This document shows, piece after piece, positions 1,874-12,821 of a DNA stretch of 64,000 bases. The position numbers and the translations under genes are program-made. The stretch comes from Chloroflexi bacterium HGW-Chloroflexi-2 (GTDB lineage Bacteria > Chloroflexota > Anaerolineae > Anaerolineales > Anaerolineaceae). Position 1 is the first letter of the stretch. The number at the start of each line of letters is the position of its first letter. Below the pieces are notes generated by a model. That model had not been told where the DNA came from and searched no databases. It worked only from the letters and a program-made list of their open reading frames with translations. The stretch lies in NCBI GenBank assembly GCA_002840735.1, contig PHBY01000012.1, positions 1 through 64,000 of the forward strand. Direction: 5' to 3'.

Positions 1874-2110
1874 ATTGCCCCTCCTCAAATTTCTAACCTG
1901 TTTTGTCCCGTAATAATTGCTGTAATCTCTTCAACAAGCGTTTGGGCAATTAACCGCTTGTTCTGCTTGCTTTTTGGAAATTAATCCAGCAACTTCGTAG
2001 ATGACCTTGTCTCTTTTTCGACGCATCTGATCAATAAGCCGAACGTGATTAGAAAATTCTTTGCCTAATCTTTCTTTGATAAAAACAATAAAAGTGCTTT
2101 GCTCCTGGCG
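1874..2110 (-). pseudogene. Remnant of a HEPN-protein gene 3' end
   Basis: On the minus strand this aligns by eye, base for base over long stretches, with the 3' part of the HEPN gene at 15109-15310 and its downstream flank. Shared words include GATTGCCCCT(A/C)CTCAAATTTC, TTAACCGCTTGTTCTGCTT, TTGGAAATTAATCCAGCAA and CTTTTTCGACGCATCTGATCA. Small deletions break the reading frame, and only about the last 65 codons are represented. It is a decayed duplicate, lying about 13.2 kb from its source. Its far end runs straight into the kelch fragment. Confidence 0.8.
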
Positions 2111-2116
2111 TTGTGC

Positions 2117-2636
2117 TATCTGGATTTATAAACCAACTGAAATGCAGCCGTCAGTTAGCCCTCATGGTCGCGATAGCCACCTGATGACATATGATGTAAA
2201 GGCAGACCGGATTCTCACTTTTGGTGGAGATATTACTTCAGATAACCTGATTGATGAAAGTTTATGGTCTTACGATTTTAATGCTGACTCCTGGCAAGAG
2301 TTAAAACCGGATGAGGCATCACACCCCTTGTCCCGCTTTTATTCCTCCCTGGCTTACGATACAGATTCTGACCGGACCATCCTTTTCGGAGGTTTACAAC
2401 TAGGCAAAGATTACGGAACCTGGGCGTATGACTATAACACCAATACATGGCAGGACATGAAACCCGCTGAAGATCCAGGACATGTTCAAAATCATTATCT
2501 GGCGTATATTTCATCAATAGACCGGGTGTTTCTCTTTGGCGGTGATGTCTGTGTCAAAAACTGTAATTTATCAAATGAAATCTGGGTTTATGATTTCAAC
2601 GCTAACACCTGGGAGAAAATAATTCCCCTTCCATAA
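2117..2636 (+). pseudogene. 5'-truncated kelch-repeat gene (three blades)
   Basis: Homology to the intact kelch gene downstream begins at IWIYKPTEMQP (about 2117) and continues through three blades with the GTWAYDYNTNTW and SDRTILFGG signatures. It ends NEIWVYDFNANTWEKIIPLP, matching the real C-terminus of the neighbour. The signal peptide and first three blades are missing. The open frame can be extended back to 2061, but those codons come from the HEPN remnant. An internal ATG at 2142 exists without a good ribosome site. I call it a truncated paralogue created by recombination; a cytoplasmic half-propeller product cannot be excluded. Confidence 0.7.
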
Positions 2637-2707
2637 CTACTGTATTGCACAATTATTAAAATTACGAGTGTCAAATCTTATTAATCATCAAAAGCAGATT
2701 GTGCAAA

Positions 2708-2729
2708 TAACAGAATTTCCTTTCTGTTA
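2708..2729. terminator. Small inverted repeat after kelch fragment
   Basis: TAACAGAA (2708-2715) and TTCTGTTA (2722-2729) form 8-bp arms around a 6-base spacer. No long T-tract follows, so it is at best a weak terminator or a protein-binding site. Confidence 0.35.
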
Positions 2730-2737
2730 ATGATCCT

Positions 2738-2779
2738 TGATCATTAAATGATACAAAAATGATAGCCACGATGTAAAGT
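2738..2779 (+). promoter_or_regulatory. Triple 11-bp direct repeat operator, kelch promoter
   Basis: TGAT starts recur at 2738, 2749 and 2760, exactly 11 bp apart. The units are TGATCAT, TGATACA and TGATAGC. Seven bases after the last unit comes TAAAGT (2774-2779) in the -10 position. The same array with the same 7-bp gap is found at 7546-7587. Streptomyces SARP (BTAD-family) regulators are known to bind heptameric direct repeats with 11-bp periodicity just upstream of the -10. Because two BTAD regulators sit beside these sites, I infer that these are their operators. Confidence 0.65.
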
Positions 2780-2904
2780 GTATTTAATCTTGGCGCGATA
2801 TTGTATTGCACCATTTTAAAACAGTTAAACCAGGTTTCGATTGAAGCATTCGATAATCAACCTGGAATCGTTAATTAATGTCATTTATTAAAGGAGAGAA
2901 TAAA

Positions 2905-3957
2905 ATGAAACACAATAAACGCATTTCCATCGTGGTTGTTCTTTTGATGATCGGAATCATGATTGTTGGCACTGTTGCAGCAGAAAGCTTGCTCCCTTCT
3001 CCGCGGGGGTATGTTTCGATGGCTTATGACAATCAATCGAAGCAAATCGTCCTGTTTGGCGGTCAGACCGGGCCGTGGCCTCTTAGAACCTCCATCAATG
3101 GGGAAACCTGGGCTTATAACGTGAAAAACAATACCTGGGCGCAGATGTTTCCAAAGAAGAAACCAAATGATAAAGCGGCAGCCTCATTAGCGTACGATAC
3201 AAAATCGGACCGGGTCATCATGTTCGGTGGGGGTAATACAGGGTTATTGGGGTTTATGACAAGTGAAACATGGGCTTATAACTATAATGCCAACACCTGG
3301 AAAAAAATGGCGTATGGTCCAATGGATTATCTCGGCGCCCGCCTGGTTTATGATTCCAATTCGGATCGCATGATTCTGTTTGGCGGATTGAATGTGTTGG
3401 ATTGGTATCTTCAAGATGGCACCTGGGTTTATGACGACGACACAAATACCTGGACAGAGATGAATCCGGCGGTCAGCCCTCCCGGACGAAACTACCAGGC
3501 TATGACCTATGATTCCAAAACAGATCGGGTACTCACCTGGGGAGGAATGTATATTGATGAATCCCCGCTACCTGAAAGCATGTGGGCCTATGATTACAAC
3601 ACAGATACCTGGGTGGAGTTCCCCGCGGTAGGTACTTATCCCCATAGCCGGGATTATGCCGCCATGGTTTATGATTCAGAGTCGGACCGTACAATCCTGT
3701 TCGGAGGAGTCCCAATCGCATATCCTGAAGAAGGGGTGGGAACCTGGGCTTATGATTACAATACACACACCTGGGAACAGATGAATCCTGATCCGGAACC
3801 CCCCTTCGTTTCACGCCACGCGATGGTGTACAGCGAGGCTACCGATCGGGTGATCCTTTTTGGTGGCGAGACAGACGATGGCGTTCTATTCACTTACACA
3901 AATGCTATCTGGGCTTACGACTTTAACACCAATACTTGGACGGACCTGACGCCGTAA
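2905..3957 (+). CDS. Exported six-bladed kelch-repeat protein
   Basis: A 350-residue protein starting at ATG 2905, seven bases after AAGGAGA; an upstream in-frame ATG at 2878 has no such site. A signal peptide (about residues 1-27, IVVVLLMIGIMIVGTVAAES) precedes six galactose-oxidase-type kelch blades. Each has the pattern R..AMxYDSxSDRxILFGG followed by TWAYDYNTNTW. Six blades fill the whole mature chain, so this is a bare beta-propeller without a catalytic domain. A binding role outside the cell is inferred. The triple direct repeat at 2738-2766 suggests control by the adjacent BTAD regulators. A truncated paralogue lies immediately upstream. Confidence 0.88.
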   Translation: MKHNKRISIVVVLLMIGIMIVGTVAAESLLPSPRGYVSMAYDNQSKQIVLFGGQTGPWPLRTSINGETWAYNVKNNTWAQMFPKKKPNDKAAASLAYDTKSDRVIMFGGGNTGLLGFMTSETWAYNYNANTWKKMAYGPMDYLGARLVYDSNSDRMILFGGLNVLDWYLQDGTWVYDDDTNTWTEMNPAVSPPGRNYQAMTYDSKTDRVLTWGGMYIDESPLPESMWAYDYNTDTWVEFPAVGTYPHSRDYAAMVYDSESDRTILFGGVPIAYPEEGVGTWAYDYNTHTWEQMNPDPEPPFVSRHAMVYSEATDRVILFGGETDDGVLFTYTNAIWAYDFNTNTWTDLTP

Positions 3958-3973
3958 AGCATTCGCAGGAGAT

Positions 3974-4042
3974 GTAGGGTGCATCCGTGATGCACCAATT
4001 TTCCATTGAACAATATAGGGTGCGTCAGCGACGCCACCCTAC
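3974..4042. repeat. GTAGGGTG/CACCCTAC palindromic element, copy 1
   Basis: The element begins GTAGGGTGCATCCGTGATGC and ends GCGTCAGCGACGCCACCCTAC-like, with inverted ends. It is the same family as the tandem array at 12882-13097 and the copy at 17856-17909. The rest of 3958-4119 is low-complexity text (TGTCCACTACAGATTGTCAA, CCCCCGTCTTCTGTCC) shared with other intergenic regions. No gene is seen. Confidence 0.75.
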
Positions 4043-4119
4043 TTTTCCTGTCCACTACAGATTGTCAACATCCCCCATCCCCCGTCTTCTGTCCCCGGTC
4101 AGCTCTATGCAACTCCCTC

Positions 4120-4147
4120 TTTACCTTTTTTTAATTCTTGCTATACT
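4120..4147 (+). promoter_or_regulatory. Promoter of first BTAD regulator
   Basis: TTTACC (4120-4125) and TATACT (4142-4147) are separated by 16 bp. The surrounding text CCTCTTTACC...ATTCTTGCTATACT is nearly repeated upstream of the second BTAD gene (8191-8223). So are the downstream leader words AGGTTCATAAGTT and GATGAGCCTTGG/GTTGAGCCTTTA. The leader is about 190 bases long. Confidence 0.6.
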
Positions 4148-4341
4148 AGAAATTAAATGGATCTCGCTTTTTTGCCGAATTCCTGACCTCATTCAACGAA
4201 TCCGGAAACAAAGGTTCATAAGTTGTTGAGACGCTAATTCACCCATCCCCTATCGCGGTAAATCCTGATGAGCCTTGGAAAGGATGGGTATATTAATGGT
4301 TTTTGGGATTCTCCGGGTGTTTGGTGTTGGGGATGGTTGTC

Positions 4342-7300
4342 ATGAATGATCATGCCCGTTCAGCTTTGCAGACCAATAAGGAGCTTGCTTCCCATTCGCC
4401 TTCAACACTGTATATCTCCTTATTAGGTGGATTCCATCTGGTCTACGGAGTCCATACCCTCTCAGCCGATCAGATCCACCTGCACAAAGCCCGTGACATG
4501 CTTAAACTATTGGCACTCTCCCCCAACCAGCGTCTCCATCGCGAAGAATTGCTTGAAATGCTTTGGCCCGAGCACGCTCCCCAACAAGCAGCCCATAATC
4601 TCAGCCAGACTCTGTATACCTTGCGACCTAAACTTAAAGCTTTGGATGCTTCGATCCGTCTGGATTTTGAGGATGAGTGTCTGAACCTTAAAGCCCCAGA
4701 CGGTATTACCTCGGATGTAGAAGACTTCGAACAGGCCGCTCGCTCTGTGCTCGGTTATACCGGTCGTATCAGCACCCAGACTACTGCCAATTGTCACGAA
4801 GCCATTTTGAAATACACAGGCGATCTCCTCCCGGAGGATGGTCCTTCCGATCTCTTTTACCAGCGCCGTGAGCAGTTGCGTCAGATGTACCTCGATTTGC
4901 TTATGCTTTTTGCCCATTACAATCTGGAATTAAAAGTCTATCTCCCGGCCATCGATGCGCTCCAGCAGGTGATTGCTGCTGATCCCGCCCACGAGGAAGC
5001 ACATACGTGTTTGATGCGCGCTTATGCCCTCAACGGTCAACGTCAGGCGGCCTTGCGCCAATTCCAGATCCTCACAGAAGTGCTCCAACGCGAGTTGGAT
5101 GTGGAACCCTCTCCAGAATGCACCTCTTTGCGCGATCGGATTCTTAATGGAGAACTGGTCGCAAAGCCCAGCCCTGCCTTACAGGAGTGGTTGGTTCGAC
5201 CCCGTCATAATCTGCCTTCCCTCGTGAGCAGTTTCATTGGGCGCGATGCTGAATTCATGCAAGTGCGCGATCTGGTTCAATCCCATCGCCTGGTTACGCT
5301 GATCGGCGCTGGTGGGGTTGGGAAGACCCGCCTGGCATTCAGGGTCGCGGAAGGTTTACTGGACGAATTTCAACAAGGGGTGTACTGGGTGGAATTGGCA
5401 TCCCTCTCCAATCCGGATATGTTGGCGAGCGCAATTCTCGATGTTTTCCGTCTACCCGAGCAAGACGGATGCAGTGAGATGGATCTGCTGTTGAATTTCC
5501 TGCGAGATCGCGACCTACTCGTGCTCCTGGATAACTGCGAGCATCTCCTTAATGGTTGCCCTGCGCTTGTGGATTTGCTCCTGAATACCTGCCCCTCATT
5601 GCACATTCTGATTACCAGCCGGGTGCGCTTGAATCTGCCGGGTGAGGTCACTTATTATGTTCCTTCTTTGAATACTCCGGATCATTCGCAATCAATCCCA
5701 TTAACCGATATCGCCCAATATGATGCCGTTCAACTGTTTGTCGAGCGATCTGCCAGTTTCTGCCCTGGGTTCGCGCTCTCCATGGCCAACGCCTGCTCTG
5801 TGACGCAAATCTGCCAGCGCCTGGATGGTATCCCCCTGGCGCTGGAACTGGCTGCAGCCCGTACGCGCATACTGACGGTGGAACAGCTTGCCTCCAAACT
5901 CGATGATGTGTTTCACCTTTTGATCGGCGGTAGCCAGGCTGCATTGCCACGCCATCGCACCCTGCAGGCTTCCTTTGAGTGGAGTTATGCTTTGCTTTCC
6001 AAACAGGAACAGATTTTACTACAACGCTTATCCGTATTTGCCGGAGGATGTACGCTGGAAGCAGCGGAGGCTGTTTGTGCCGGAGAAGAGATTGAAGCTT
6101 TTGAGGTACTGGATTTGTTGTCCTGTCTGGCGGATCAATCGTTAATCTATGTTAAACACCTCTCCGAGGGAGAGTCGCGTTACTATCTACTGGAAACCAT
6201 CCGCCAGTTTGCGCATCAACGCCTGCAGGAAAGTGGTGCATTACCCAGGCTTCATCAACGTCACCTGGTTTACTTTCTCCAGCTGGCGGAAGAAGGAGAT
6301 CAGCAGATACGTGGACCACAACAGTTGATCTGGATAAAGCTTTTGGAGAAGGAGAAAAATAATTTTACGATTGCCATCGAGAGAGCTTTTGAATCATCCA
6401 CCAATTTAGAGGTGGGCGTGCAGCTGATTTGTGCATTAACCTGGTTCAGGTACCGAACTGGGGACTTCAATCTACAATTAAATTTTATTCAAAAAGCCTT
6501 GTTCATTGGGAAAGAAAATATTTCCACTTATACCCAGGCAAAGCTTCTTTTCCATGTTGGTTTTTCATCGAATTGGTTGGGGAGGTGTCTATTAGGAGAA
6601 GAAATCGCGACCCTTCTCGAAAAAAGTATAACGATCTGGAAAGAATTAGGGCCAAAGTATGTGTTGGAAGAATCTCAAAGCAAGTTGATTTTAGGATTCA
6701 ATTATTTGTTTCTATTTATGAACAGCGGCCAGGGAAGCCAATTAATCAAGGAGAGTATAAGTGTTTTTCAAAAAGCAGATAATGTTTGGTGGCATGCCTA
6801 TGCTTTAAATTTATTATTAACGACAGATCTTATGGACAGAGATGCAGAGGCTGCTTTATCAATCCTCCAGAAAGAAACTATTCTCTGGCAAAAAACTGGT
6901 GATCTTTGGGGACAGGCACTGTCAATATGGGATTACGGTTTGTTTTATTTGATCCATGGGGATTTTGTGAAAGCTCAGGGATATCTCCAAAAAAGTCTGG
7001 AAATATTCACAAAATTCGGCTCGATCAGTATTACGTGCCGGATCATGAGAGAATTGGGAAAGATAGCCTATACGCTACATGAATATGACCAGGCAAAAGC
7101 ATATTTGGAAAACAGCTATCTTCTGGCAAAGGAGGTTGGATATTATGACACCTGTGCATCCATCCAATGTGTTCAGGGATTTTTTTCAATTCACAAACAA
7201 GATATCAAAAATGCTGAATTGCTTCTTTCGGAGGCTTTAAGAAACGCACAAAAGTTGGCTAATATCGACATTCTTATTCATTGTATTGCTGGATTTGCTG

Positions 7301-7548
7301 CCATCAACCTGCTTTGTAAACAATTGGATATTGCTGTCCAATTATTCAGTGTCTGTGACGCTCATTTGGATGCTATTCGGAGCCCTGCTACGCCTTACAA
7401 AAGCATTGATATTGATCCTTACGTGGAACAATGTCGACAACAACTTGAAATAGATGTCTTTGATCAAGCCTGGGCGGAAGGCAGCGCTCTGTCTCTCGAT
7501 CAAGCCGTACAAATCGTTCAGGAATCGTTGAATCTCATTCCCCACTGA
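4342..7548 (+). CDS. AfsR-like BTAD regulator with NB-ARC ATPase and TPR
   Basis: A 1068-residue cytoplasmic regulator. In order it has a winged-helix domain (about 23-97, HKARDMLKLLALSPNQRLHREEL), the BTAD helical domain (about 105-255), and an NB-ARC/STAND ATPase. The ATPase has Walker A GAGGVGKTRL near 322, Walker B LLVLLDNCEHLL near 392 and the arginine-bearing ILITSRVRLNL near 421. A TPR-like helical C-terminus occupies about 650-1060. Family knowledge: the TPR sensor unlocks ATP-driven oligomerisation and the wHTH-BTAD half binds direct repeats at promoters. ATG 4342 follows GGGGATGG; the second paralogue has the same start context. Other starts (4303) are possible. The likely target sites flank the gene at 2738 and 7546. 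Confidence 0.9.
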   Translation: MNDHARSALQTNKELASHSPSTLYISLLGGFHLVYGVHTLSADQIHLHKARDMLKLLALSPNQRLHREELLEMLWPEHAPQQAAHNLSQTLYTLRPKLKALDASIRLDFEDECLNLKAPDGITSDVEDFEQAARSVLGYTGRISTQTTANCHEAILKYTGDLLPEDGPSDLFYQRREQLRQMYLDLLMLFAHYNLELKVYLPAIDALQQVIAADPAHEEAHTCLMRAYALNGQRQAALRQFQILTEVLQRELDVEPSPECTSLRDRILNGELVAKPSPALQEWLVRPRHNLPSLVSSFIGRDAEFMQVRDLVQSHRLVTLIGAGGVGKTRLAFRVAEGLLDEFQQGVYWVELASLSNPDMLASAILDVFRLPEQDGCSEMDLLLNFLRDRDLLVLLDNCEHLLNGCPALVDLLLNTCPSLHILITSRVRLNLPGEVTYYVPSLNTPDHSQSIPLTDIAQYDAVQLFVERSASFCPGFALSMANACSVTQICQRLDGIPLALELAAARTRILTVEQLASKLDDVFHLLIGGSQAALPRHRTLQASFEWSYALLSKQEQILLQRLSVFAGGCTLEAAEAVCAGEEIEAFEVLDLLSCLADQSLIYVKHLSEGESRYYLLETIRQFAHQRLQESGALPRLHQRHLVYFLQLAEEGDQQIRGPQQLIWIKLLEKEKNNFTIAIERAFESSTNLEVGVQLICALTWFRYRTGDFNLQLNFIQKALFIGKENISTYTQAKLLFHVGFSSNWLGRCLLGEEIATLLEKSITIWKELGPKYVLEESQSKLILGFNYLFLFMNSGQGSQLIKESISVFQKADNVWWHAYALNLLLTTDLMDRDAEAALSILQKETILWQKTGDLWGQALSIWDYGLFYLIHGDFVKAQGYLQKSLEIFTKFGSISITCRIMRELGKIAYTLHEYDQAKAYLENSYLLAKEVGYYDTCASIQCVQGFFSIHKQDIKNAELLLSEALRNAQKLANIDILIHCIAGFAAINLLCKQLDIAVQLFSVCDAHLDAIRSPATPYKSIDIDPYVEQCRQQLEIDVFDQAWAEGSALSLDQAVQIVQESLNLIPH

Positions 7549-7587
7549 TCAAAAAATGATACAAAAATGATAGCCTATCATTAGAAT
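7546..7587 (+). promoter_or_regulatory. Triple 11-bp direct repeat operator, second copy
   Basis: TGAT starts recur at 7546, 7557 and 7568 (units TGATCAA, TGATACA, TGATAGC). After seven bases comes TAGAAT (7582-7587) as -10. The first unit uses the TGA stop codon of the preceding regulator. A 22-base stretch is identical to the kelch-promoter copy, and the unit-to-minus-10 spacing is the same. The downstream gene is the small ORF at 7811. The rest of 7588-7810 shows no further gene. Confidence 0.65.
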
Positions 7588-7810
7588 ATAAATAGTTACA
7601 AACCATTACTGACATTCGCTTCATCCATTGTTAGCAAGCATCAAATGGATCGCCAGGCAACCATAATGTCAACCATCTGAATCAGAAGCTTTTACTCCCT
7701 CAAACAATGGACGCAGAGGGTTCCTGTGTCACCCCCAAAGCACGGTTCCAGTGGACAGGATTAACGACAACAAGTTTGTACCCCTTTCTCAATCAAAAAA
7801 GGAGGTCGTG

Positions 7811-8032
7811 ATGTTCAACCCACTCAATAATATTGAAACCAGTTGGAGAATTTCAAACATGGATGATGAACATTTTTATAAAATGGGATTCTGGGCACCT
7901 CAAAAAAAGCAAAATCTCGTTGATCTGTGCCTGTTTGGATCATGCAAATTTTTAAAGCTCCTGGCAAAAATTCTCGAAACCCGCTATGAATTACGCTATC
8001 AGGTCCGGCAACACAAATACACTCACCCATAA
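7811..8032 (+). CDS. Small hypothetical protein, possibly BTAD-controlled
   Basis: A 73-residue protein of no recognised family: N-terminal MFNPLNNIETSWRISNMDDE, a middle GFWAPQKKQNLVDLCLFGS, and a basic C-terminal helix (LAKILETRYELRYQVRQHK). No signal peptide or membrane segment is convincing. It is listed because ATG 7811 is preceded by a very strong GGAGGT five bases upstream, and because the transcript from the direct-repeat promoter at 7546-7587 would reach it first. A longer in-frame start (7751) lacks a ribosome site. It might be a substrate, leader or target of the flanking regulators; nothing in the sequence decides. Confidence 0.5.
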   Translation: MFNPLNNIETSWRISNMDDEHFYKMGFWAPQKKQNLVDLCLFGSCKFLKLLAKILETRYELRYQVRQHKYTHP

Positions 8033-8066
8033 TCAATGCCACTCAATAAACATTTTCAAAAGGAGC

Positions 8067-8120
8067 GAAGCATGCGAACAGATCCCCGATCATCAACGGG
8101 CTCATTTGCTCGCATGCTTC
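8067..8120. repeat. GAAGCATGCGA inverted repeat
   Basis: GAAGCATGCGA (8067-8077) and TCGCATGCTTC (8110-8120) are perfect 11-bp arms. The same arms occur at 14561-14572 and 14604-14615, with single arms at about 14784 and 14946. An open frame starting at 8072 begins inside the left arm and is therefore not called as a gene. The rest of 8033-8194 is low-complexity intergenic text. Confidence 0.65.
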
Positions 8121-8194
8121 CCCTTGTGTTCCAACTAATTTTTCACGAACCTTCCGCATTGAGCCTTGAGCAGTCAGCCGTCAGCTATTCCCTC

Positions 8195-8223
8195 TTTACC
8201 TTTTTTTTCATTCTTGCTATACT
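8195..8223 (+). promoter_or_regulatory. Promoter of second BTAD regulator
   Basis: TTTACC (8195-8200) and TATACT (8218-8223) have a 17-bp spacer. The block is nearly the same as the promoter at 4120-4147, and the following 200-base leader is also conserved (AAGGTTCATAAGTT, GGGGATGGTTATCATGAA). Confidence 0.6.
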
Positions 8224-8423
8224 GGAAAGTAGAAATTCTTTTTCTCACCTTATTACCTGGTACCTGCATTCTCTCAAAGGGTTGGGAAATAAGGTTCATA
8301 AGTTACAGAATCATAATTTCGTCCTTGCTCCATCGTGATAAAACCTGTTGAGCCTTTACAAGGATTTGATCATTTGATCCGCTTTCTGGTCATGGCTGTT
8401 CCTTTGCTTTGGGGATGGTTATC

Positions 8424-11400
8424 ATGAACGAACTTACTCACCTATCTCATCATATTGCGATGAAGAATGATATCCAACCTGCGATTAAGTTGCGTTTTTC
8501 CCTGCTGGGTGGCTTTCGCCTGCAGTGTGGAGAACACTCACTCACGGAAGATAAAATTCATCTGCGTAAAGCCCGTGACCTGCTCAAGCTCTTAGCCCTT
8601 GCTCCCAACCACCGCCTGCATCGTGAAGAGGTTTTGGTTTTGTTGTGGCCGGAGCATTCTCCCCAGCAGGCTGCCCATAATCTCAGCCAGACCCTGTATA
8701 CCCTGCGACCCAAACTGACGGAGCTGGACACTTGCATCCATCTGGCGTTTGATGAGGAAAGCCTGTTCCTGCTGCCTGCGGATGGCATTTCAAGCGACGT
8801 GGAGGCGTTCGAGAAAGCAGCCCGATCCGCACTCAGTCGTTCTGGCCAGATCAACAACCAGACGATCACCTGCTGCCAGGAGGCCATCCGGATGTACACG
8901 GGTGATCTCCTCCCGGACGATGGTCCTTCCGATCTTTTTTACCAGCGTCGTGAGCAGTTGCGCCAGTTGTTCACTGATTTACTATTGTTTTTCGCGCATG
9001 CTAATCTGGAGTTAAATTCATTTACACCAGCCATTCAAGCGCTCCAGCAGGTGGTTGAAATCGATCCCGCTCACGAGGAAGCGCATTTCCAATTGATGCG
9101 CGCCTATGCGCTCAATGATCAGCGACAGGCTGCCTTGCGCCAGTATCAGTTACTGGCGGATGCCCTCCACATTGAGCTTGGTGTAGAGCCTTCCCCGGAA
9201 AGTACACTGTTACGGGATCAGATCCAGAAGGGAGATTCGATCGTTGCGCATCTCCGGATAGCCAGAAAAATTGGCATGTGTCCTTATCGGGGTTTGTTCG
9301 CCTTTCAGGAAGTGGATGCGCCTTTTTATTTTGGTCGCATAGCTATTGTCGATGCGTTGAAAGAAGCCCTTCAGGCAAAGAAACTGGTGGTTGCGATTGT
9401 TGGCTCTTCGGGCTCGGGTAAATCCTCAGTTTTGTATGCCGGACTGATTCCCCGATTGCGCAAGCAGGGAGGGTGCCAATTTGTCTCCTTCCGCCCTGGC
9501 AACCAGCCCTTCTTTGCCCTGGCGGATGCGTTGCTTCCACTGATGAAAGCTAATTCAAGTAAAGCCGATCTCTTGGTGGAAACCTCAAAAGTAGCCGACC
9601 AATTGCAAACTCAGAAACTACACCTGACGCAGATCGTTGATCAGATATATGAGAATTCCCTGGATTCACAACAACTCCTGCTGGTAATCGATCAATTTGA
9701 GGAACTCTACACCCTTTGTCCGGATTTCGATCATCAGAAAGCCTTTGTGGATGAGCTACTGGCATGCGTGGCAGGGACTAAAGCACAGAAGACCGCCGGG
9801 GTGGCGATCCTGATCGCCCTTAGAGCGGATTTCATGGGACAGACGCTGGCGCACCGTCCGTTTGCGGATATCTTGCAGGATGCTTCCTTATTAATGGGGC
9901 CGATGAACCGTGAGGAATTACGCCTGGCCATTGAGAAGCCGGCGGAGTTGCAGGGAGCAGCCTTTGAACCCGGGCTGGTGGAACGCATTCTGGATGATGT
10001 CGGCGAAAAACCTGGCAACCTGCCTTTGTTGGAGTTCACCCTGACCCAGTTATGGGAGCAGCAGACAGATGGCTGGTTGACCCACAGTGATTACGAAGCT
10101 ATGGGTGGCGTGGAAGGAGCGCTGGCTGCGTATGCGGATCAGGTCTATGCCGATCTGCGGGAAGAAGAACGCGAAAGAGCCCGCCACGCGCTGGTGCAAC
10201 TGGTGCAGCCTGGTGAAGGCACCGAGGACACTCGCCGTATTGCCACGCGTGAAGAGTTGGGCGACGAAAGCTGGCAGCTCATCCAGTATCTGGCAGATAA
10301 ACGGCTGGTGGTGACTGAGCGGGATGCGCAGGGGCGCGAGACCACCGAGGTGGTGCATGAAGCCTTGATCCGCAAATGGAACCAGTTCCAGGAGTGGATG
10401 GAGAGCGACCGCGCGTTTCGCGCCTGGCAGGAACAGTTACGCACGCATGTACGGGGTTGGCAGGAGAGCGGTCAGGACGAAGGCGCTTTGCTGCATGGTG
10501 TCCCGTTGGGGGTGGCACAGACCTGGTTGGGTGAACGTGGGGAACAGGTCAGTCAGACAGAAAAAGATTATATTGACGCCAGCCTGGCATTGCAGGAGAG
10601 ACTGCAGAAAGAACGCCATCGCAGACGCCAGCGGACGGTGATGGGACTGGTCAGTGGATTGGTGATTGCTATCTTATTGGCTGCCTTTGCATTGATTCAA
10701 CGATCCGATGCACAGAAAGAGCGACAAAATGCTTTAATTCAAGCAAGCATTGGTCTGGCATCCCAGGCACAACTGGAACTCAATGGAACAACTCCCGAAC
10801 GATCGGTGCTTTTAGCTTTAGATGCCCTGGAAAATTATCCTTATACCTGGCAGGCGGAAAAGGCATTAGGGCAAATCGTCAGAGAGTTCAGACTGCAGGA
10901 TATTTTATCCGGGCATCGCGATACAGTACTGACAGCTGCCTGGTCTCCGGATGGATCTAAGCTTGCTTCATCTGGCTACGATGGCACTCTCAGGATTTGG
11001 GATGGAATAACCCACATTGAATTGTCCACCATAAAAGCGCATTTTGCCTTAAATGTTACACAAGCAGGCGTATCAAAATTGGCCTGGTCATCCGACTCTA
11101 CCCGGATTGCCACGGCTGGCATCGATAGGTATGCCAAAGTATGGGATGTGCAGACAGGCCAAGAAATCGTCACTTTCAACGGTCATCATGATATTTTATC
11201 CGCAATAGCCTGGTCTCCCGACGGCAATTGGATTGTTTCTTCAAGCAAAGATGGGGTTGTGAAGGTCTGGAATGCCCACACAGGAGAGGAAATTTTTGAT
11301 TTGGTCGGGCACGATGGCTGGGTGATGAGCGTCGATTGGTCACCGAATGGGCTGTATATAACCACTGCCGGTGACGATGATACAGCCAGAATTTGGGATG

Positions 11401-12821
11401 CATCTACAGGTGAAGAATTACTGATACTGTCAGGACACACCAACTGGGTTTGGAGTGTTGACTGGTCTCCCGATGGAAAAAAAATCGCAACTGCCAGCGA
11501 GGATGGTACGATCAGAATCTGGGATGCGCTGACAGGGGCTGAACGTTCGGATATTCGCCTGGCAAACCCGGTTTGGCAGGCCTCCTGGTCCCCGGACGGG
11601 TTGAGTCTGGCAACGACAAGTGGCTCAGGATTGGCTCAAGTCTGGGATGTCTCCAGCGGGAAGCAAGTTTTTTCCCTTCAAGGCATTACAGAGGAACAAT
11701 TTGACATCGCCTGGTCTCCAGATGGAAAATCATTGGTCACGACGGGTGGAAAAGCGGCTTCGGTACGGATTTGGAATGCATTACCCATCCATCTGACCCT
11801 CCCGGATGGGCCAGGACAAGCCTGGTGGGTATCATGGTCACCCGACGGAAGTCGGATTGCTGTCGTATATTCCTTTGAAAGAACCGTTATTATCTGGGAT
11901 TCCTGGACAGGTGAAAAAATACTCACTATAACCGGTCATACCAATGAAGCCCAAATCGAGGATGCCTGGTGGTCACCGGATGGTACAAAAATTGTGACGA
12001 CAGGGTGGGGAAATCTGGCAAAAATATGGGGTGCAAACACAGGGGAGGAACTGCTTACCTACACTGGGCATTTAGGAGAACCTGAAATAAAATTTGCTGG
12101 TCAAACAGCTCTATCTGGTGGGGGTTGGTCGCCTGATGGTTCCAGAATTTTAACATCAGGATATTCGATACAGGTTTGGGATGCCAATACCGGAAAGCAG
12201 ATCACCAAAATTATTCCTACAACCGATTTATATATTTACGCGCGTTGGTCCCCTGATGGAAAGCATCTGGCGTCCTGTGCACCGCCTGAGGTTCTCCAAA
12301 TTTGGGATGCAGCCACAGGTGCAGCAATGCTGGGTGGATATGTTCACAATACAGCTGATAAGGAATTTGGAGATGCTATAGATAACTGCATGGGTGTTGA
12401 ATGGTCACCAGATGGCAAATATGTCCTCACAACCAATGTATATGGTAGTAGAGCCACGATTTGGGATGCAGAGACCGGTCATAAAATCCTGATTTTCAAA
12501 GGTCACCCAGGCGCACTTTTGATACCAGCCTGGTCGCCCAATGGGATGCGTGTGGCAACCGGGGATACGACCGGCGGTGTAAAAATATGGGACGCGGAAA
12601 CCGGGTCTGTTTTGTTAGATTACTCCATACCGATTGGTGATTTTCTTTTTCAGATAGCCTGGTCTCCAGATGGCACCCGTCTGGCTGGAGGAGCAGCCAT
12701 GAAATCAATCGAGATACATCGTGTCTGGCAGAGCACCGAGGAGCTGATCGATTATGCCAAGGAGTGCTGCGTCTTCCGCGAGCTAACGGACGCAGAGAGA
12801 ACGCAATTTGGATTGGATTGA
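8424..12821 (+). CDS. BTAD regulator fused to STAND ATPase and WD40 propellers
   Basis: A 1465-residue multidomain protein. A winged helix (about 20-100) and BTAD (about 105-255) are closely similar to the upstream paralogue. Next comes a STAND/NACHT-like ATPase with P-loop GSSGSGKSS near 326 and Walker B LLLVIDQFEELY near 418. A single hydrophobic segment near 739-758 (MGLVSGLVIAILLAAFALI) is followed by 14 WD40 repeats from about 827 to 1425 (WSPDG...RIWD), enough for two seven-bladed propellers. The N-terminal half must be cytoplasmic to bind DNA, so the propellers would lie across the membrane if the helix is a true TM segment. The start follows GGGGATGG, as in the paralogue. Confidence 0.9.
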   Translation: MNELTHLSHHIAMKNDIQPAIKLRFSLLGGFRLQCGEHSLTEDKIHLRKARDLLKLLALAPNHRLHREEVLVLLWPEHSPQQAAHNLSQTLYTLRPKLTELDTCIHLAFDEESLFLLPADGISSDVEAFEKAARSALSRSGQINNQTITCCQEAIRMYTGDLLPDDGPSDLFYQRREQLRQLFTDLLLFFAHANLELNSFTPAIQALQQVVEIDPAHEEAHFQLMRAYALNDQRQAALRQYQLLADALHIELGVEPSPESTLLRDQIQKGDSIVAHLRIARKIGMCPYRGLFAFQEVDAPFYFGRIAIVDALKEALQAKKLVVAIVGSSGSGKSSVLYAGLIPRLRKQGGCQFVSFRPGNQPFFALADALLPLMKANSSKADLLVETSKVADQLQTQKLHLTQIVDQIYENSLDSQQLLLVIDQFEELYTLCPDFDHQKAFVDELLACVAGTKAQKTAGVAILIALRADFMGQTLAHRPFADILQDASLLMGPMNREELRLAIEKPAELQGAAFEPGLVERILDDVGEKPGNLPLLEFTLTQLWEQQTDGWLTHSDYEAMGGVEGALAAYADQVYADLREEERERARHALVQLVQPGEGTEDTRRIATREELGDESWQLIQYLADKRLVVTERDAQGRETTEVVHEALIRKWNQFQEWMESDRAFRAWQEQLRTHVRGWQESGQDEGALLHGVPLGVAQTWLGERGEQVSQTEKDYIDASLALQERLQKERHRRRQRTVMGLVSGLVIAILLAAFALIQRSDAQKERQNALIQASIGLASQAQLELNGTTPERSVLLALDALENYPYTWQAEKALGQIVREFRLQDILSGHRDTVLTAAWSPDGSKLASSGYDGTLRIWDGITHIELSTIKAHFALNVTQAGVSKLAWSSDSTRIATAGIDRYAKVWDVQTGQEIVTFNGHHDILSAIAWSPDGNWIVSSSKDGVVKVWNAHTGEEIFDLVGHDGWVMSVDWSPNGLYITTAGDDDTARIWDASTGEELLILSGHTNWVWSVDWSPDGKKIATASEDGTIRIWDALTGAERSDIRLANPVWQASWSPDGLSLATTSGSGLAQVWDVSSGKQVFSLQGITEEQFDIAWSPDGKSLVTTGGKAASVRIWNALPIHLTLPDGPGQAWWVSWSPDGSRIAVVYSFERTVIIWDSWTGEKILTITGHTNEAQIEDAWWSPDGTKIVTTGWGNLAKIWGANTGEELLTYTGHLGEPEIKFAGQTALSGGGWSPDGSRILTSGYSIQVWDANTGKQITKIIPTTDLYIYARWSPDGKHLASCAPPEVLQIWDAATGAAMLGGYVHNTADKEFGDAIDNCMGVEWSPDGKYVLTTNVYGSRATIWDAETGHKILIFKGHPGALLIPAWSPNGMRVATGDTTGGVKIWDAETGSVLLDYSIPIGDFLFQIAWSPDGTRLAGGAAMKSIEIHRVWQSTEELIDYAKECCVFRELTDAERTQFGLD

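Follow-up and report, generated by a model that had tools for sequence, protein, structure and literature searches.

In the sections of the published work that we draw on, SARP-type activation on 11-bp repeats has so far been worked out in Streptomyces. The available text on AfsR describes two 11-bp repeats that occupy -40 to -19 and cover a poor -35 element, with the SARP protomers side by side and sigma region 4 resting on them, and it gives 8 bp as the distance between the -10 and the 3' repeat at SARP sites (PMC10936776). For PimR, the available text gives an operator of three heptamers with 4-nt spacers (PMC5930380). A literature search over titles and abstract openings found no operator for BTAD/SARP-type proteins in Chloroflexota among the matches listed. 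The locus described here comes from Chloroflexi bacterium HGW-Chloroflexi-2, a member of the Anaerolineaceae within Chloroflexota, and was analysed in a 64,000-nt stretch of its assembly (GCA_002840735.1, contig PHBY01000012.1; hereafter the window). It offers a concrete candidate operator, a candidate protein and two candidate target genes, all open to direct testing.

Two arrays of TGAT-led heptamers lie in the window (Table 1), and the first TGA of array B (7546) is also the stop codon of the regulator gene BTAD1. An earlier note made from the letters of this DNA had reported TGAT starts at 2738, 2749 and 2760 and again at 7546, 7557 and 7568, nearly the same three heptamers at both loci (TGATCAN, TGATACA, TGATAGC), and a -10-like hexamer seven bases past the last unit, and we found each of these as described. 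The two genes that it named as possible targets, for an exported kelch protein and a 73-residue unknown, do lie just downstream of the arrays. The exact 11-bp period that it gave holds for both window arrays and for the full three-unit layout at four of the five sites now known in three species; it fails at the kelch site of the related genome G007, where unit 1 stands 12 bp from unit 2. All five sites have units 2 and 3 at 11 bp and a TANNNT hexamer whose distance from the 3' repeat is 7 bp, with unit borders uncertain by 1-2 bp. After TGAT the units vary in a conserved manner, which simple repeats need not do. The arrays occupy the place where a -35 would be expected, and a consensus scan listed no plus-strand sigma-70 match for their hexamers, as a poor -35 would have it. 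The SARP geometry proposed in the note also agrees with published sites as far as the available text describes them, namely the 11-bp repeats and the three heptamers of PimR (PMC10936776, PMC5930380).

Table 1. Coordinates of the main features of the locus, counted from the first letter of the window
Feature	Position	Strand	Remarks
Array A	2738..2766	+	Heptamers TGATCAT, TGATACA, TGATAGC; 11-bp period; upstream of kelch gene
Array A -10-like hexamer TAAAGT	2774..2779	+	7 nt past array A; kept in G007; 4/6 to TATAAT
Kelch beta-propeller protein, 350 aa	2905..3957	+	Pfam Kelch families; hydrophobic N-terminus (by eye); proposed target
BTAD1 sigma-70-like promoter	4120..4147	+	TTTACC-16-TATACT; without array; from promoter scan
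BTAD1, 1068 aa	4342..7548	+	AfsR-like wHTH-BTAD-STAND ATPase-TPR (Pfam; PDB match AfsR); proposed activator
Array B	7546..7574	+	Heptamers TGATCAA, TGATACA, TGATAGC; 11-bp period; 29/29 identical in G006 and G007
Array B -10-like hexamer TAGAAT	7582..7587	+	7 nt past array B; TACAAT in G006
Basic small protein, 73 aa	7811..8032	+	90% identical in G007, 84% in G006; proposed target
BTAD2 sigma-70-like promoter	8195..8223	+	TTTACC-17-TATACT; without array; from promoter scan
BTAD2	8424..12821	+	wHTH-BTAD-nSTAND1-WD40; recognition-helix sequence same as BTAD1

Arrays A and B agree at 27 of their 29 positions and have the extended sequence TGATCANNAAATGATACAAAAATGATAGC in common, and in 100 Markov resamplings of the regions compared (2600-2904 versus 7500-7811) the best 29-mer match was 22, with a mean of 18.3. 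The bare pattern TGAT-N7-TGAT-N7-TGAT occurs twice in the source genome (G000; 4.1 Mb, 40 contigs), at arrays A and B; since about 3.4 copies would be expected genome-wide from the TGAT frequency of the window, this count shows no enrichment and says nothing, and we dropped it as evidence. No third copy of the 29-mer with up to 3 mismatches was found in the same genome. What is not due to chance is the 27/29 match, the placement on either side of one AfsR-like gene, and the conservation. A palindrome at array B, ATGATAGCCTATCAT, was dropped as a candidate because neither G006 nor G007 keeps it.

A search of the source genome and 100 relatives for the 29-mer (up to 3 mismatches) returned 3 of 101 genomes, the source itself plus G006 and G007, which are two further species of its genus and have one exact copy each. 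Both copies are syntenic with the window, in the order BTAD1 gene, array, 73-aa gene, BTAD2 gene. The earlier note had named as counter-evidence a repeat that is missing from orthologous loci, or one common across the genome with no tie to promoters or BTAD genes; what we saw was the array at the loci of G006 and G007 and the repeat at two places in the genome. In a three-way alignment (window 3958-9300), array B is invariant at 29 of 29 columns, and the longest invariant run of the compared 5.3 kb is the 30 bp at 7545-7574 that hold it. The corresponding share of invariant columns is 68% for the N-terminal part of BTAD1 and 66% for its remainder (the proteins are 65-71% identical between the species), 60% for the leader at 7626-7810 and 80% for the small ORF. 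Directly past the array B hexamer, 35 of 38 columns (7588-7625) are invariant in the three species, above the rest of the leader, and this stretch may include the start site or a further operator.

Across the 101 genomes, the three with the 29-mer are also the three in which the small protein was found, and among the 8 of the genus they are the three with the BTAD pair; because this is one linked locus in three genomes, the co-occurrence of array and BTAD pair is weak proof. No arrays were found in the five genus mates that lack the BTAD-pair locus, and a looser 29-mer search over 301 genomes of the order returned G000 and G006 only, G007 being outside that sample. In the near relative G001 (96% complete; 89-95% identity in two further BTAD proteins) neither the small protein nor the BTAD pair was found, which makes the distribution of the module patchy. 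A scan of a genome collection for the BTAD pair, with narrow peptide patterns and possibly without the window's own record, gave two loci, in the Anaerolineaceae MAGs KA20 and E6_concoct.bin.151. For a two-unit core pattern, written to fit the five known sites, every further match in the eight genus genomes had at least 2 mismatches. With up to 3 mismatches it gave 115 matches in these genomes versus 42 for a reversed control, an excess seen in 8 of 8, including the 5 without the locus; we attribute this excess to A-rich composition and do not count the loose matches as regulon members.

The note had also proposed a DNA code for a Chloroflexota BTAD-STAND signalling unit; as a code for BTAD proteins in general, this found no support in a co-occurrence scan. 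We searched 38 sequences (37 loci plus the opening 13 kb of the window; 43,530 non-coding bp), covering 35 BTAD loci other than the BTAD pair, some of which end at contig ends, for three heptamers at periods of 8-15 and, 5-10 nt further on, a TANNNT. At period 11 there were 5 clusters, of which 4 belong to the array A/B family, and periods 8, 9, 10, 12, 13, 14 and 15 gave 0, 0, 1, 0, 4, 0 and 1. Because a comparable 11-bp triplet stood at 1 of the 35 other loci of the genus, convergent to its gene, BTAD genes follow no general rule and we rejected such a code. The scan missed the G007 kelch site since it is blind to shifted units. The single triplet found elsewhere (locus L023, ~7010-7054, minus strand) reads ACATCAA/ACATACA/ACATTAT at 11-bp steps, with a TANNNT downstream and directly after the BTAD gene; it is possibly chance.

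The flanking genes, which the note took for BTAD proteins, encode wHTH-BTAD-STAND proteins, the first of them closest to AfsR; the source genome has eight BTAD matches. In Pfam, BTAD1 matches Trans_reg_C at residues 49-100 (26.5 bits, cut-off 26.2) and BTAD at 125-268 (76.3 bits, cut-off 22.1), which is the N-terminal winged HTH and following BTAD of the SARP family. TPR_12 lies above its cut-off, and AAA_22, AAA_16 and NB-ARC within 298-419 are significant and under their curated cut-offs, giving the STAND/NOD ATPase and TPR that follow BTAD in large SARPs. BTAD2 matches BTAD, nSTAND1 and WD40. Among solved structures the best match of BTAD1 is AfsR (8k60, E = 4.1e-17, and 8jke; 8hvr at 6e-5), in an alignment that spans BTAD1 residues 51-635, and Foldseek with the first 277 residues, in a poor model (pLDDT 58), put AfsR (8k60/8hvr) and EmbR on top at TM 0.34-0.41 by query length. 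A six-domain profile run against PDB sequences returned no SARP and nine proteins, all of them designed TPR-type, so the AfsR match rests on single-sequence and fold searches. BTAD1 falls outside the NCBIfam AfsR equivalog NF053617 (96.5 bits, cut-off 1430), and PADLOC gave one weak TPR match, to BTAD1, and zero for the other three proteins.

The helix sequence NLSQTLY[T/V]LRP is identical in the six proteins of the BTAD pair from three species, and it is absent from the 22 (of 35) other genus BTADs whose N-terminal parts were compared. The nearest other BTADs in the class came from 17 of 396 genomes (E up to 1e-35, source genome included), and NLSQTLY was found in 0 of the 11 readable helices at 18 non-window loci of the class. 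Natural variants of the recognition helix, T or V at one position, adjoin the same DNA site. In an ungapped hand alignment from W75/W74, using DNA contacts from the available text on AfsR (PMC10936776), BTAD1 keeps W74, P79, Q81 and R94, has Q and T/V at the base-contacting T88 and R92, and loses six further contacts (S46, Q48, S80, R87, S91 and K95); because HMMER places gaps in that stretch, we infer these residue pairings rather than observe them.

The BTAD genes have promoters of their own. Single matches of the promoter scan mean little because 16 were found against 10.8 +/- 3.3 in shuffles, near background overall, and the two BTAD promoters gain weight because their hexamers are kept in all six leaders compared (6/6). 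Between promoter and start of both genes lies an 81-nt conserved leader element, AAGGTTCATAAG...CTGATGAGCCTT (4210-4290 and 8290-8370), in which a helix of ~11 pairs is possible and a second, downstream AAGG could compete for CCTT. A search of 151 genomes (E up to 0.01) with a model built from its six copies finds those six alone, two in each of three genomes, and the 38 locus sequences gave one further weak match (E 0.94, locus L024); the element has no Rfam match, and its covariation is too small to prove an RNA.

The small protein has a pI of 9.3 and no Pfam or NCBIfam family. Its homologs were found in 3 of 400 genomes of the order, the three already known, and none in viral contigs; its best PHROGs match (a tail protein, E 0.026) we took as chance, and its model is helical and, at pLDDT 62, not interpretable. 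No structured RNA was found in its leader (z = 0.50), nor any Rfam match at E up to 1 over 2000-8500. Between the small gene and BTAD2, a perfect inverted repeat, GAAGCATGCGA/TCGCATGCTTC, of two 11-bp arms around a 32-nt loop (8067-8120) is kept in G006 and G007; no T-run follows it, and from its sequence it could end the small-gene transcript.

The kelch gene has an ortholog in G007, 85% identical and ahead of BTAD1, and G006 gave no kelch match at E up to 1e-40. Upstream of the G007 gene stand TGATCG, then TGATACA and TGATAAC at 11 bp, and TAAAGT 7 nt further, unit 1 being shifted by 1 bp. This site came from alignment and was not returned by the 3-mismatch 29-mer search: blastn of G007 against the window starts at 2746, within the array and directly ahead of unit 2, and extends beyond the start codon with 145/165 identical, and upstream of unit 2 no extended match was found. 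Just upstream of array A lies a kelch fragment (2061-2636; 49% identity to kelch-protein residues 174-350) that looks like what is left of a duplicated kelch gene. A leucine-rich-repeat protein with a signal-like N-terminus (by eye) is encoded beside the kelch genes, at 837-1820.

Since the arrays flank an AfsR-like gene and are kept in relatives, they are probable on-switches for the small and kelch proteins. We put at roughly 0.6 the probability that they are SARP-type activator operators through which BTAD1, perhaps with BTAD2, switches on these two genes. OmpR/PhoB-type regulators, which have the winged helix as well, likewise bind direct repeats of 11-bp period in place of a -35, and the main rival to our reading is that the arrays are operators of such a response regulator encoded elsewhere. 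Their period, A/T-rich spacers and position are the same as in the pho box. The available text on Streptomyces describes an afsS site common to PhoP and AfsR (PMC10972967). From a global regulator, however, scattered sites would be expected, whereas the two sites in 4.1 Mb both flank one regulator gene and none was found in the five genus mates without the locus, and we regard this explanation as unlikely.

A promoter scan also allows the arrays to be read mainly as -10-like hexamers (TATCAT) of a minus-strand promoter, or as the promoter of another sigma factor: TTTACA-18-TATCAT over array A (10/12) is the joint best match of the scan, and the G007 kelch promoter again shows both hexamers with the 18-nt spacing. 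This seems quite improbable given that the scan listed no such match at array B, that nearby minus-strand ORFs are short and overlap plus-strand genes, and that the kept plus-strand sequence downstream leads to conserved genes. Least probable among the alternatives is that array B arose by recent copying of array A, or is a leftover of recombination, with no regulatory role. The 27/29 match and the patchy locus, with nothing of the module found in G001, would suit such an origin, but the mutual identity ends beyond ~30 bp and both arrays are separately kept in another species at the same promoter position.

Our preferred reading is a SARP-type operator confined to this locus, with a sequence code of its own that one or both tandem BTAD proteins probably recognise. 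From the arrays, their conservation and exclusivity, the gene order and the AfsR-like sequence, all of which are observed, we infer binding, activation and signal gating as follows. Monomers of BTAD1, and perhaps of BTAD2 with its same recognition-helix sequence, would sit side by side on the TGAT heptamers along one face of the DNA. Once bound, they would compensate for the missing -35 and recruit RNA polymerase to the hexamer that follows 7 nt later, in the way of AfsR at afsS, so that array B would drive the 73-aa protein and array A the kelch protein. The -35/-10 promoters of the BTAD genes would supply the activator, gated by signals through ATP and TPR/WD40. Tentatively, the locus may represent a full AfsR-AfsS-like circuit outside Actinobacteria, with two tandem STAND sensors (TPR and WD40) that share a recognition helix and a private TGAT-based SARP code and act on just two neighbour genes, one for a new small protein and one for an exported kelch protein; the module would be gained or lost as a unit in one Chloroflexota genus.

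AfsS is a small protein encoded beside afsR, and the closest known system is AfsR-afsS of Streptomyces coelicolor (SARP-NOD-TPR). BTAD1 resembles AfsR in its domain order, wHTH-BTAD-STAND ATPase-TPR; the promoters share 11-bp direct repeats, a poor -35 and a -10 or -10-like hexamer near the last repeat, as far as the available text describes afsS; and the gene order is likewise regulator, 11-bp-repeat promoter and small-protein gene, here the proposed target. With the AfsR -10 taken to occupy -12 to -7, T-26 of its CGTTTATCG lies 14 nt before the -10, as does the first T of TGATAG here, and this alignment of TTATCG with TGATAG is consistent with an AfsR-like placement, though no proof of it. 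Unlike those of AfsR, for which the available text gives CGTT(T/C)ATCGNN, the repeats here are TGAT-based and number three instead of two, the T88 and R92 positions differ in the hand alignment, the small protein has no known family and the phylum is another one. PimR and other three-heptamer SARP operators, in the text available, share the three heptamers and 4-nt spacers, whereas PimR is a SARP-LAL with the heptamer CGGCAAG, an operator that does not overlap the -35 and a target that is an antibiotic-cluster regulator, unlike the targets proposed here. The pho box of the OmpR-type PhoB/PhoP also combines 11-bp direct repeats with activation from the -35 region; it usually has many sites per genome and other repeat sequences, unlike the two sites at one locus described here.
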